A DNA stretch of 64,000 bases from Synechococcus elongatus PCC 11801 (GTDB lineage: Bacteria > Cyanobacteriota > Cyanobacteriia > Synechococcales > Synechococcaceae): positions 2,087,223 through 2,151,222 of the forward strand of contig NZ_CP030139.2 in NCBI RefSeq assembly GCF_003846445.2, in the 5' to 3' direction. The position numbers were made by a program, and so were the translations under genes. The notes under the pieces were generated by a model. The model worked only from the letters and a program-made list of their open reading frames with translations. It had not been told where the DNA came from and made no database searches. Positions 4,586 through 9,273 of the stretch are shown in pieces (position 1 is the first letter of the stretch; each line of letters starts with the position of its first letter).

Positions 4586-5548
4586 ATGGAAGCTATCCGC
4601 CACGACTGGCCCCTCGACGAAATCGAAGCCCTTCTCAACACACCACTCCTCGAGTTAGTCCATCGTGCGCAAACGGTGCATCGCGACTATCAACCCGTTA
4701 ATGCCATCCAACTGGCAACGTTGCTCAGCGTCAAAACCGGCGGTTGCAGCGAAAACTGCGCCTATTGTCCTCAGTCAGCTCACTACAACACTGAGGTCGA
4801 TCCTCAATTCACCTTGCCGATCGAAACCGTTTTAGAACAGGCGGAACGCGCCAAAGCGGCTGGTGCTAGCCGTTTTTGCATGGGCTGGGCTTGGCGCGAG
4901 ATCCGTGACGGCGCCCAGTTCGACGCCATGCTGGAGATGGTCCAAGGCGTGCGTCAGTTGGGGCTCGAAGCTTGTGTCACTGCTGGCATGCTCAGCGATC
5001 GCCAAGCCGAGCGACTGGCAGAAGCGGGGCTCACTGCCTACAACCACAATCTCGATACAAGTCCCGAATTTTACGGCGAAATCATCTCGACCCGCACCTA
5101 CTCCGATCGCCTCGCCACTTTGGAACGGGTGCGGCAAGCGGGCATCAGTGTTTGCTGCGGCGGCATCATTGGCATGGGTGAAGGGCAGCGCGATCGCGCT
5201 GGATTGCTGCAGGTTCTTGCAACCCTCGATCCTCATCCTGAGAGTGTGCCGATCAATGCCCTAGTGCCAGTTGAAGGAACTCCTCTAGGCGATCGCGATC
5301 GCCTCGATCCACTGGATTTGGTGCGGATGTGCGCCGTCGCTCGGATTTTGATGCCGAAAGCACGGGTTCGCCTTAGCGCCGGTCGCACCGCCCTCAGCCG
5401 CGAAGCGCAAGTCCTCTGCTTCATGGCAGGTGCCAACTCGATCTTCTACGGCGACACCCTGCTGACCACGGCAAACCCAGCCTGCGAAGCTGATCGCCAA
5501 CTCCTCGCCGACATCGGTGCCCAAGCGCTTGAGGTGGTGACTGCTTAG
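4586..5548 (+). CDS. bioB: Biotin synthase
   Basis: Radical-SAM enzyme that inserts sulfur into dethiobiotin, the last step of biotin synthesis. The [4Fe-4S]/SAM motif is [14 protein letters not shown] (CxxxCxxC), preceded by the typical [29 protein letters not shown] and [10 protein letters not shown] are family landmarks that include ligands of the second cluster. Length of 320 aa is normal. The ATG at 4586 gives [10 protein letters not shown]; an in-frame TTG at 4526 would overlap the upstream ATP-grasp gene and is less likely. No other bio gene is nearby. Confidence 0.96.
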
Positions 5549-5581
5549 CCTTGACTAGCGATCCCACCCAAACACCAATAC

Positions 5582-5609
5582 AAAAAAAGGGGTAGGACAA
5601 CCTACCCCT
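5582..5609 (-). terminator. Rho-independent terminator of the ycf35-like gene
   Basis: Stem AGGGGTAGG (5588-5596) with CCTACCCCT (5601-5609), loop of 4, followed on the minus strand by a run of T (A-run 5582-5588 on the plus strand). It ends the minus-strand unit and also sits 40 bases beyond the convergent bioB stop. Confidence 0.88.
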
Positions 5610-5638
5610 CGAATGATGGAACGCCAAAGGAAGAGGAC

Positions 5639-5989
5639 TTATTGCAACACCAGCTTGACGTTGGCATTGCTTAGACCAGGCCGTTTGACCTCAGCCAAGG
5701 TTTTGTTGACGGCGTATTTTTGGTTGATCGCATTGATCAGCTCAGTCTGATTGTGCTTTTTGGCTACGCCCCAAAGGTCAGCGATCAAATCGAAGGAGCC
5801 ATCGCTATTGCGCGACCAGCCCAGATCGTAGTCGCCTTCCAGCGTGGCAACCAAGTCAGCCCGCACGCGCTGGCCGTTATAGCCCCGCACGTCGGCATTT
5901 TCTTGCACCGCAATTCCGAGATCGCGCAGCGACTGCTTCAGGATCACAGCATCACTGATCTTGGTGCGAAGGGTACTGAAGTGAGACAT
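5639..5989 (-). CDS. Ycf35-like DUF1257 protein
   Basis: A 116-residue protein starting MSHFSTLRTKISDAVILKQS, a hallmark of the DUF1257/Ycf35 family shared by cyanobacteria and red-algal plastids. Motifs seen are ADVRGYNGQ and GDYDLGWSRNSDGSFDLIAD. Function is not established. The ATG at 5989 is chosen from this conserved N-terminus and GGAG about 10 bases upstream; the open frame reaches back to 6049. It lies downstream of ycf46, 135 bases away on the same strand, and a terminator follows. Family members are often found beside ycf46, so a shared role is plausible inference. Confidence 0.88.
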   Translation of the reverse strand: MSHFSTLRTKISDAVILKQSLRDLGIAVQENADVRGYNGQRVRADLVATLEGDYDLGWSRNSDGSFDLIADLWGVAKKHNQTELINAINQKYAVNKTLAEVKRPGLSNANVKLVLQ

Positions 5990-6093
5990 CGGAAGAAACT
6001 CCTGTATCAACGGTGGAGAGAGGGAGAGTCCCAGGTTGCCCTTGAGCAAACCTGACGGGTGAGAAACTGCTGGTCTGTTGGGATCAAACCAGC

Positions 6094-6122
6094 CTTCCCC
6101 CTGTTGGGATCAGGGGAGAAGC
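6094..6122. other. Imperfect hairpin between ycf46 and ycf35-like genes
   Basis: CTTC and CCCCT near 6094-6102 can pair with AGGGG and GAAG near 6112-6121, leaving one bulged base, just beyond the ycf46 stop. The 12-mer CTGTTGGGATCA occurs twice in this gap (from about 6075 and 6101). There is no strong T-run, so it could be an RNA-processing site rather than a terminator. Confidence 0.35.
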
Positions 6123-6124
6123 CT

Positions 6125-7633
6125 TTAGAACTCCAATCGCTGGTATTCAGCGACGGAGGCCGCAGCGGGTCGAGCTCGCTGTCGAGCCCAGTCCCGCAAC
6201 GCTGCCACCTGTTCATTCATTGTCTTGGAGAGGGGCAGCGTGGACTTGATTGCGGCAATGATGTCGAGCTGCGTAAATTCGCGCTCTTGGGCAAAGGCCT
6301 CATACATAGCTGCAATCAAAGCTTGTTCAATCTCGGCACCTGAAAAGCCATCCGAGACTTTGGCGAGTTGCTCAAGGTCAAAGCGATCGAGGGGGCGCTT
6401 GCGCTTGGCAAGGTGAATGCGGAAAATTTCGGCACGTTCTTCCGGCGTGGGCAAATCGACAAAAAAGATTTCGTCAAAGCGCCCTTTGCGGAGGAACTCG
6501 CTGGGCAGCCGCTCGACTCGGTTTGCCGTCGCCATCACAAAAACGGGCGATCGCTTTTCCTGCATCCAAGTCAGGAAGGAACCAAAGATTCGGCTAGAGG
6601 TCCCGCCATCCGAGTCAGCTGATCCGGCAGAGCCTGCAAAGGCTTTGTCTAGCTCATCGATGAATAGAATCGCAGGCGCGATCGACTCGGCTGTCTTCAA
6701 GGCATTGCGCAGGTTGGCTTCCGAACGTCCGACCGTGGAACCGTCGTAGACGCGCCCCATATCCAGCCGCAGCAAAGGAAGTCCCCATAATCTTGAGGTT
6801 GTTTTGGCAATCAGGGACTTGCCGCAACCCGGCACCCCTAAGATCAGCATCCCTTTGGGTTGGGGCAAGCCGTAGCTGCGCGCTTTCTCGGAAAAAGCAC
6901 CCGATCGCTGCCGGAGCCAGTGTTTCAGCTCTTCCAGGCCACCAACCGCATCGAGCGTTTCATCCTCTTCTATGAATTCCAGAATGCCGTTACGGCGGAT
7001 CAGCTGTTGCTTCTCCGAAAGGATGACATCGACTTCAGCTTCCGTCAGGCGTCCGGCTGTCACTTGGGCCTTGCGATAGACTTTTTCAGCCTCATCGCGG
7101 GTCAACCCCAGGGTTGCTTTCAGCAGCTTTTCGCGACCGGATTCAGAGGGACGAGGCAGCGATCGCCGTTCAAGTTCGCGATCGAGTACCGATCCTAATT
7201 CCACCAGATCAGGCAAGGGGAAGTCGAGGACAACGACATCTTTCTCCAGTTCCACCGGCACCGTCTGCACCGGCGACATCAGAATGATGGTTTTATCAGT
7301 GGCTTTGAATTGGGCGATCGCATCCCGCAACCAGCGAGTAACGGCTGGCGACTCAATAAAGGGATGAAGATCTTTGAAGACGTAGATGCCGGAACCTTTG
7401 TGGCGCACCACCCACTCGATCGCCGCTTCGGGCGAGACGGTGCTGTGGTGGGCAACCTGTCGCGGCTGACCGTATTCAACAATGCCGTGAGTCACGGTCC
7501 AAAGAAACAGCTGCCGAGATCCACAACTCTGCGCCAGCGTTGCCAAAGAGCGCTCGCTGCGTTCTTCCTCAGAAGTCACTAAATAGATCAGCGGGTACTG
7601 CGCTTGTAGCAGGACGCCCAATTCTTCGCGCAT
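6125..7633 (-). CDS. ycf46: Ycf46-type AAA+ ATPase
   Basis: A 502-residue single AAA+ ATPase of the Ycf46 family, found in cyanobacteria and some plastid genomes. The N-terminal 200 residues (MREELGVLLQAQYPLIYLVT, then EERSERSL) are family-specific. The ATPase domain carries Walker A GVPGCGKS, Walker B ILFIDELDKA, sensor ATANRVERLP and the arginine finger region RKGRFDEIFFVD. Mutant work on the Synechocystis homologue slr0374 connects it to photosynthesis or inorganic carbon responses; its substrate is unknown. It lies between the upstream ribbon-helix-helix gene (77-base gap) and the downstream ycf35-like gene, all on one strand, which suggests one transcript. Confidence 0.92.
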   Translation of the reverse strand: MREELGVLLQAQYPLIYLVTSEEERSERSLATLAQSCGSRQLFLWTVTHGIVEYGQPRQVAHHSTVSPEAAIEWVVRHKGSGIYVFKDLHPFIESPAVTRWLRDAIAQFKATDKTIILMSPVQTVPVELEKDVVVLDFPLPDLVELGSVLDRELERRSLPRPSESGREKLLKATLGLTRDEAEKVYRKAQVTAGRLTEAEVDVILSEKQQLIRRNGILEFIEEDETLDAVGGLEELKHWLRQRSGAFSEKARSYGLPQPKGMLILGVPGCGKSLIAKTTSRLWGLPLLRLDMGRVYDGSTVGRSEANLRNALKTAESIAPAILFIDELDKAFAGSAGSADSDGGTSSRIFGSFLTWMQEKRSPVFVMATANRVERLPSEFLRKGRFDEIFFVDLPTPEERAEIFRIHLAKRKRPLDRFDLEQLAKVSDGFSGAEIEQALIAAMYEAFAQEREFTQLDIIAAIKSTLPLSKTMNEQVAALRDWARQRARPAAASVAEYQRLEF

Positions 7634-7710
7634 GGTGAATCTAGACCTCGCAAAGCGATGGACAGACCCTCAACAGGCTTTTGCTTGGTCAGTCGATCAA
7701 CAGTCCCGGT

Positions 7711-8052
7711 TTAGCAGGGAACTAGCTCTTCATCAGAAGCAATCGCTGTTGCAGGGGTGGACTCAACCGTGAGGCTGGAATCCTCTTGCAAAATGTTGGG
7801 CTGATGGCGCAGAGAGGTCAGTTCTCCGTGCTTCAGGACAACAGGGGAGGTGCAGTCTGGACAGTGATAAACCCGGAAGGTGCTGCCATGGGCATTGGTC
7901 GCTTCTTCCACGATCTCGGAATGCTCCAGATAAAACTGAAGTGCTTTCTCAGCGATCGCAGACATTGGCTCGAGATCCACGGCTGCCCGGATTTTGAGCT
8001 GCCGGTGCAGATCAGGGGGCAAATAGAACGTAACTTTTTGCTTGTCTTGCAT
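7711..8052 (-). CDS. Ribbon-helix-helix DNA-binding regulator
   Basis: A 113-residue protein. The N-terminal 45 residues have the form of a MetJ/Arc-type ribbon-helix-helix: a beta strand (KVTFYLPPDLHRQLKIRAAV) followed by two helices (MSAIAEKALQFYLEH). A CPDC pair (VYHCPDCTSPVVL) may bind metal or form a disulfide; the C-terminus is polar and probably disordered. The ATG at 8052 is chosen because the domain begins there and the promoter at 8090-8119 lies upstream; the frame stays open to 8094. It is the first gene before ycf46 and the ycf35-like gene. A perfect inverted repeat sits inside its promoter, so self-repression is plausible. Confidence 0.82.
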   Translation of the reverse strand: MQDKQKVTFYLPPDLHRQLKIRAAVDLEPMSAIAEKALQFYLEHSEIVEEATNAHGSTFRVYHCPDCTSPVVLKHGELTSLRHQPNILQEDSSLTVESTPATAIASDEELVPC

Positions 8053-8089
8053 GGAATCCGAGTGTTCTCTATACCCGGGTATGAATCGT

Positions 8090-8119
8090 ACCATAGACGC
8101 TTTAGCTGAAAAGCGTCAA
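8090..8119 (-). promoter_or_regulatory. Promoter with inverted-repeat operator, ribbon-helix-helix/ycf46 unit
   Basis: On the minus strand TTGACG (8119-8114) and TATGGT (8095-8090) form -35 and -10 boxes 18 bases apart. A perfect 8-bp inverted repeat, GACGCTTT (8096-8103) and AAAGCGTC (8110-8117) with a 6-base centre, fills the space between them. A repressor bound here would block RNA polymerase. The DNA-binding gene directly downstream is the natural candidate, which is inference. Confidence 0.6.
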
Positions 8120-8295
8120 GGCAGTACAACGGCATACTGGCAATTAATTTACATTTAGCAACAAATTAAAGCGCCAATACTCTCCGATCGCTGAGTCAAA
8201 AAGGGACGATCGCTCAGCTATGAAGACTGGTTGCAAGACCTCTCGGCTGATCCCCGCTGCATGCTAGGTTGCGAGCAGAGCCGAGGGTAGCGCAG

Positions 8296-9273
8296 ATGGC
8301 CACCAAGACGACCGCGCCAACGGGTGCCAGCTTGTCCTGGCAGGTGACGGCACCCCCCGCTGTGGATTTAGTGATATCCCTGCCTCAACCATCCTTAGCC
8401 TGCTTGTCAGGCACCGTCAGCATTGCGATTCGGGGTGGACGACTTCCCCAAGTGCGACCAGAGTCGTTGGCACTGTTAGTCGATGGCCCCAGTGACTTGA
8501 AATGGGAGCAAACCCCCAGCGGTTGGGTGGGCTGGCGCGAACGTCCAGGCTTGACTCAACTCCGCTGGCGGTTACCCGCTCACACGCAGCCCCATCCGGT
8601 GAACTGGGTGGTGAGCTTAGCCGATGTCGTGCTCGTGCAAGCTTGGGGGTTGTGGAATCACGATCTCTCGCCCAATGCCCAGGTCTTGGCAGAGCGACTG
8701 ATTCTCAAACATTGGCTGCGATCGCTACCCACCACACCCGAAGGCGCAGTGCTGGCTTCGACCACAGCCCCCACGGAGCGATCGCTGGACTGGGATCAGT
8801 CTCTCGCTGCACTTTTGCCGACGGTGTTAGCCGGTTATGAAGGCTGGCAATCCTTGGGGCTTGATCCCCAACGAGATTTTGTGGGAGCCAACCTGACGAG
8901 CGTTGATTGGCGCGGCAGTGATTGGAGTGGTTGTGACCTACGACGCACCAACTGGCGTGGTGCCAATCTTAATGATGTTGATTTTTCGGGAGCGGATTTG
9001 CGCCATAGCCGTTGGGCTGGAGCAGATCTTTCGGGAGCGTTGCTCAGTGATGCGCGCTTACGCGGGGCGGATTTCCGACGGGCGAGTCTCGCACTGGTCA
9101 ATCTGGCAGGCGCAGATCTCTCTCAGGCAGATTTGCGGGAAGCGAACCTGAGTCGAGCCAACTTAACGGGAGCCAATGTTGTCGGGGCTCGCTTTGGCAA
9201 TAATGTTGGACTCGAAGCTGAGCAAATCACCACCCTGCGCGATCGCGGTGCACTATTCGTCGTTGAGAGCTGA
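8296..9273 (+). CDS. Pentapeptide-repeat protein, 325 aa
   Basis: The first 190 residues are a non-repetitive, beta-rich region of unknown type, while residues from about 200 onward are a run of A(D/N)Lxx-type pentapeptides (GANLNDVDFSGADLRHSRWA and so on). Such runs fold as a right-handed quadrilateral beta-helix. The biochemical role of most cyanobacterial members is unknown. No signal peptide or membrane helix is visible, so it is probably cytosolic. The ATG at 8296 follows GAGGGTAG by about 6 bases and gives MATKTTAPTGASLSWQ; an in-frame TTG lies at 8269. Its last 21 bases overlap the convergent DUF39 gene. Confidence 0.85.
   Translation: MATKTTAPTGASLSWQVTAPPAVDLVISLPQPSLACLSGTVSIAIRGGRLPQVRPESLALLVDGPSDLKWEQTPSGWVGWRERPGLTQLRWRLPAHTQPHPVNWVVSLADVVLVQAWGLWNHDLSPNAQVLAERLILKHWLRSLPTTPEGAVLASTTAPTERSLDWDQSLAALLPTVLAGYEGWQSLGLDPQRDFVGANLTSVDWRGSDWSGCDLRRTNWRGANLNDVDFSGADLRHSRWAGADLSGALLSDARLRGADFRRASLALVNLAGADLSQADLREANLSRANLTGANVVGARFGNNVGLEAEQITTLRDRGALFVVES

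Follow-up and report, generated by a model that had tools for sequence, protein, structure and literature searches.

A conserved promoter module and a probable ribbon-helix-helix autoregulator of the slr0373-ycf46-DUF1257 operon in cyanobacteria

Short tandem boxes are typical targets of ribbon-helix-helix (RHH) proteins, and the MetJ and omega-type RHH repressors bind as dimers to boxes of this sort that recur with a period of 7-8 bp; the Met boxes are palindromic. In Anabaena PCC 7120, TrcR (all0854) is an RHH autorepressor whose conserved operator, with an 8-bp consensus, lies over the -10 element and the start of its own promoter (PMC10272220).

The slr0373-ycf46-slr0376 operon of Synechocystis shows one of the strongest inductions by blue light and responds to iron, sulfur, nitrogen, salt, light (including high light), and oxidative stress (PMC7496141). 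Transcripts of the operon also increase at low inorganic carbon (PMC7283877), those of ycf46 and a slr0373-like gene go up under threonine toxicity in Microcystis (PMC12172450), and CRISPRi of slr0373 results in high fitness at 30% CO2 (PMC11782454). The literature searched names neither an operator nor a regulator for slr0373, and the controller of the operon is thus not known from it; the comparison presented here names a candidate regulator, a candidate operator, and the exact bases of the latter.

The operon and its head gene

The window (the whole stretch of 64,000 nt that was analyzed) carries on its minus strand a unit with an RHH gene at its head, followed by ycf46 and then by a DUF1257 gene:

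7711 to 8052, minus strand: RHH gene of the slr0373 family, 113 aa, with the strand KVTFYL, an invariant CPxC (C64, C67), and a C-terminal Cys113
6125 to 7633, minus strand: ycf46 (slr0374-type AAA ATPase), 502 aa; Pfam AAA, 5.5e-28; Walker A motif with a cysteine
5639 to 5989, minus strand: DUF1257 protein (slr0376-type by position), 116 aa; Pfam DUF1257, 1.7e-23
5587 to 5610, minus strand: intrinsic-terminator-like stem-loop and T run 3' of the DUF1257 gene, with a 10-pair stem of which 6 pairs are G-C (2.9 terminator-like stem-loops are expected by chance in the region)

A preliminary description of this DNA had reported these same genes, i.e., a 113-aa RHH protein with CPDC at the head of the unit (8052 to 7711) and, 3' of it on the same strand, a Ycf46 ATPase and a DUF1257 protein. 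It had also taken the two downstream genes to be poorly understood and of plastid type, although they are not entirely obscure. The 113-aa protein matches the NCBIfam equivalog NF052617 (slr0373 family) with 157.3 bits against a cutoff of 100, residues 2-113 aligning to positions 1-113 of the profile. This membership identifies the unit as a stress operon described in Synechocystis PCC 6803, slr0373-slr0374(ycf46)-slr0376, with the same head family, ycf46 in second place, and the gene order as published (PMC7496141), although the DUF1257 gene is equated with slr0376 by gene order and not by sequence. Furthermore, a second DUF1257 gene (G000:C1:132316-132624) outscores the one in the window, with 153 versus 83 bits, and the latter is consequently a paralog of Ycf35 rather than Ycf35 proper.

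In all 173 loci, ycf46 adjoins the RHH gene on the same strand, and in all 115 loci with enough flanking sequence, the third gene in order is the DUF1257 gene. The slr0373-family gene is present in a single copy in the window's genome and is carried by 99 of the 291 genomes sampled from the phylum; among those listed, it is absent from the sampled genomes of family f19, which are mostly 1.6-3.7 Mb in size. A pentapeptide-repeat gene (8299-9273, plus strand) is divergent from the unit in the window, and the sister genome L034 has the same neighbor.

On the 113-aa protein, all Pfam RHH models score below cutoff, and Pfam was thus rejected as proof of an RHH fold. In a PDB profile search, the RHH proteins 9kkd, 2kel, and 6sbw are among the top matches (E 0.025-0.35), which are weak singly but concordant; the sequence profiles point to CopG-family 9kkd and 2kel and to CdbA, none of them strong alone. 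CdbA also leads in Foldseek (prob 0.93), with CopG-DNA at 0.72. The AlphaFold monomer, whose mean pLDDT of 65 is mediocre, has helices at residues 13-26 and 30-43, which follow the strand KVTFYLPP in the pattern of an RHH fold. On the basis of these concordant, individually weak profile and fold matches, the protein is assigned to the RHH family. It is predicted to bind DNA as a dimer, by means of its paired strands, and the KxTxY strand is kept in 93 of 94 orthologs.

In the alignment used for the RHH gene (n=28), the orthologs start at MQDK, in agreement with the 113-aa start. An in-frame ATG at 8094 opens a 127-aa frame, whose extra residues (8053-8094, minus strand) would be a translation of the conserved palindrome region described below. 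Both points indicate that the 113-aa start is correct; a gene finder may nevertheless choose the wrong one.

All 94 of the diverse orthologs have the CPxC pair, and in 84 of them a cysteine lies within the last three residues, with two more having it a few residues earlier. A CPxC pair would suit a thiol or zinc switch, and redox or metal sensing by the RHH protein is possible. In Synechocystis, Cys269 of slr0374 (Ycf46) is 91.6% reduced in the light and 78.3% in the dark in vivo (PMC13214033), and such a light/dark response suggests that redox control fits the setting of the operon. The Ycf46 of the window has a cysteine at residue 270, within its Walker A motif GVPGCGKS, that appears to be the equivalent of Cys269.

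The promoter and the repeat in its spacer

Upstream of the RHH gene lies the sequence TTGACG-18 nt-TATGGT (8119-8090, minus strand), as the preliminary description had stated; it is the sole promoter-like match in 5400-8400 (one found, 1.0 expected). The promoter and the inverted repeat within it comprise the following:

8114 to 8119, minus strand: -35 hexamer TTGACG; TTGACA in 129 of 137 relatives
8090 to 8095, minus strand: -10 hexamer TATGGT; TAnnnT kept at the same place in orthologs
8096 to 8117, minus strand: inverted repeat GACGCTTT-tcagct-AAAGCGTC, specific to the genus

The repeat, too, is present as described, with perfect 8-bp arms and a 6-base center; it begins within the -35 hexamer and occupies the entire 18-nt spacer. 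The earlier proposal was that this repeat is the operator of the RHH protein, and several features are in accord with it: the arms are perfect, the repeat lies within the promoter, and GACGCTTT-N6-AAAGCGTC occurs once in the 2.80-Mb genome. In addition, the arms are identical in the sister genome L034, although the center differs. However, perfect 8-bp repeats with a center of 0-10 bases are not rare in the window (29 register hits versus 6-23 in simulated sequence), and consequently the interest of this one rests on its position and conservation. Among the 162 distinct orthologous promoters examined, it is found in two (L004 and L034), both from the window's genus, and it is absent from every promoter outside that genus despite the conserved protein with its KxTxY strand. 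Even within the genus, the conserved arms add little, since the two genomes barely differ anywhere in the proximal promoter, and the right part of the repeat can also be read as an additional 8-bp box (TAAAGCGT), in register with those discussed below. Thus, the conservation upstream of orthologs that the proposal called for fails beyond the genus, where the repeat was rejected as an ancestral operator, and it is very unlikely that the RHH protein uses it as its operator. The case is a warning against taking a conspicuous repeat in a single genome for the operator.

The conserved palindrome and the tandem boxes

Two other elements of the promoter, which the preliminary description had missed, recur well beyond the genus. 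A third entry is a possible extension of the second:

8071 to 8082, minus strand: perfect 12-bp palindrome ATACCCGGGTAT, at about +1 to +12 from the inferred start; the best operator candidate
8113 to 8144, minus strand: four tandem 8-bp boxes, ATTGCCAG TATGCCGT TGTACTGC CTTGACGC, the last overlapping the -35 hexamer
8097 to 8112, minus strand: possibly two further boxes in register, TTTTCAGC TAAAGCGT, which include part of the spacer repeat

The palindrome recurs across orthologous promoters as ATACCCGGGTA(T). Counted as present at 9/12 matches or more together with a -35 hexamer, it is found in 137 of 162 distinct promoters, and in 124 of these 137 the gap between the hexamer and the palindrome is 30-31 nt. 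Because this gap is nearly fixed, the palindrome sits on the expected start of transcription, which, judging from the -10 element, would be near 8083. The pattern TTGACR-N15-40-ATACCCGGGT has 72 matches in 291 genomes, 69 of which are at a slr0373-type gene. The window's genome contains a single exact copy of the palindrome and none with one mismatch, and most relatives that have it carry one locus per genome. In G303, ATACCCGGGTA occurs at several places besides the slr0373-type promoter, and these could be extra targets or chance matches. Among the 20 listed of 27 papers that contain TACCCGGGTA, none concerns the slr0373 operon; the matches appear to be incidental oligonucleotides or sequences.

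The departures from the common form are informative. Three promoters (L043, L173, and L160) have the symmetric variant TACCT/AGGTA, in which both half-sites have changed, and in L160 there is also a 3-bp spacer. In eight others (L028, L154, L155, L162, L164, L166, L168, and L186), the half-sites TACCC and GGGTA lie 3-4 bp apart. Retention of the dyad through such changes characterizes a symmetric DNA site. A single dimer would not usually accommodate half-sites at separations of both 0 and 3-4 bp; with the half-sites 3 bp apart, the distance between their centers is 8 bp, the same as the period of the boxes. In some orthologous promoters (L051, L055, L056, L188, and L191), the palindrome is not recognizable.

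The position of the palindrome, at or just past the inferred start, would also allow it to function within the 5' leader of the RNA, affecting stability or translation, rather than as a DNA operator. Against this, no intramolecular hairpin is possible in the common form TACCCGGGTA, which lacks a loop, the symmetric TACCTAGGTA variants preserve the dyad without any hairpin potential, and the spacing to the -35 hexamer is almost fixed. A role in the RNA therefore seems highly improbable.

The periodicity of the boxes was analyzed in 83 promoters less than 70% alike, anchored on the -35 hexamer. At positions -25 to +7, a period of 8 stands out with a z of 25 versus shuffles and far exceeds periods of 10 and 11. 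When the -35 box was left out and whole columns were permuted, a control in which relatedness is retained, the period-8 identity was 0.467 versus 0.238 in the permuted sets (0/400). The boxes of the window have 11/24 period-8 identities. The consensus, C-W-T-R-M-Y-R-K, is directional rather than palindromic. Scored with the box profile, the palindrome half-site CATACCCG ranks in the top 1% of 8-mers, a moderate fit, and the likeness between box and palindrome is only suggestive.

Models based on sequence only, each built from 39 sequences, were made of the 33-nt array and of a 54-nt block and used for a site search. The slr0373-type promoter comes out on top in nearly every relative, and in most of the relatives' genomes there is no second site with a comparable score. 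The window's own score is not independent, since the window is among the 39 sequences; the sister G291, which is outside the models, is matched by the 54-nt model at E 6.5e-5. Given the lack of a comparable second array site in most relatives and the small number of extra palindromes, the reading of these elements as those of a regulon was rejected.

Probable autoregulation, its alternatives, and known systems

The palindrome and the array together constitute a conserved site at the RHH gene's own promoter that is essentially single copy per genome. A site with one target, beside a DNA-binding gene with one copy, the two being kept together across cyanobacteria, argues for autoregulation by that gene. 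The slr0373-ycf46-DUF1257 operon thus probably has a dedicated autoregulator in the RHH protein, which most likely represses it from a private operator module. In the model proposed here, it would bind the palindrome TACCCGGGTA spanning the transcription start and probably also the four tandem boxes that end on the -35 hexamer. While bound, the protein would block RNA polymerase; under stress it would come off the DNA, with the invariant CPxC pair perhaps acting as the trigger. The places of the elements, at the start and at -35, suggest repression, as with TrcR; conservation alone does not distinguish a repressor from an activator. The earlier suggestion of autoregulation by this protein therefore stands, with strong indirect evidence from the palindrome and boxes, but not by way of the spacer repeat through which it had been argued.

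The different geometries of the two elements, inverted and direct, raise the possibility that the RHH protein binds the palindrome at +1 only and that another factor, perhaps a response regulator, binds the boxes. Direct repeats at -35 suit response regulators, a site like that of the response regulator RpaB lies just upstream in most relatives, and the fit of CATACCCG to the box profile is only moderate. However, most genomes lack a second site comparable to the array, which sets it apart from the sites of a global regulator, and a period of 8 is far stronger in it than one of 10 or 11. Division of the promoter between two factors in this way can be entertained tentatively.

The upstream site just mentioned is as follows:

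8148 to 8165, plus strand: degenerate HLR1-like (RpaB) site TTTACATTTAGCAACAAA, 13/16 match

An HLR1-like site with a match of at least 14/16 is present in 60 of 83 non-redundant relatives, nearly always at the same position and on the opposite strand; by chance, such a match occurs in 1/415 shuffles. This common, fixed placement, together with the response of the Synechocystis operon to high light and blue light (PMC7496141), would be expected if the operon were controlled mainly by RpaB, a high-light/redox response regulator, acting at HLR1, with only fine-tuning left to the RHH protein. Within the genus, however, the site is degenerate (13/16 in the window and 12/16 in the sister genome), and at an inferred position of about -82 to -65, it lies farther upstream than the activating range given for RpaB, -66 to -45 (PMC13421787). 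Primary control by RpaB is accordingly rather unlikely.

To return to autoregulation by the RHH protein, a further and still speculative version of it would have a single-target regulator read both the boxes over the -35 hexamer and the palindrome at the start, releasing both through a CPxC thiol/metal switch. If true, this would tie the Ycf46 operon to photosynthetic redox state in most of the larger-genome cyanobacteria.

How does this promoter of about 100 bp, conserved across cyanobacterial families, compare with the known systems? As with TrcR, there is a small cyanobacterial RHH protein with a conserved putative operator over its own promoter. However, the TrcR operator has a different sequence, ATACTACACTTGTATTAC, and TrcR has many targets, whereas the module here is single copy. 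Like a MetJ operator, the array consists of tandem boxes with an 8-bp period, but its boxes are directional where Met boxes are palindromic, and it is accompanied by a separate palindrome at the start site. A CPxC tail is not known from the MetJ or omega family. The array may thus work like a MetJ operator, yet it is not classed as one. RHH autoregulators are a known kind of regulator; what sets this locus apart is an operator module that is unusual and deeply conserved.
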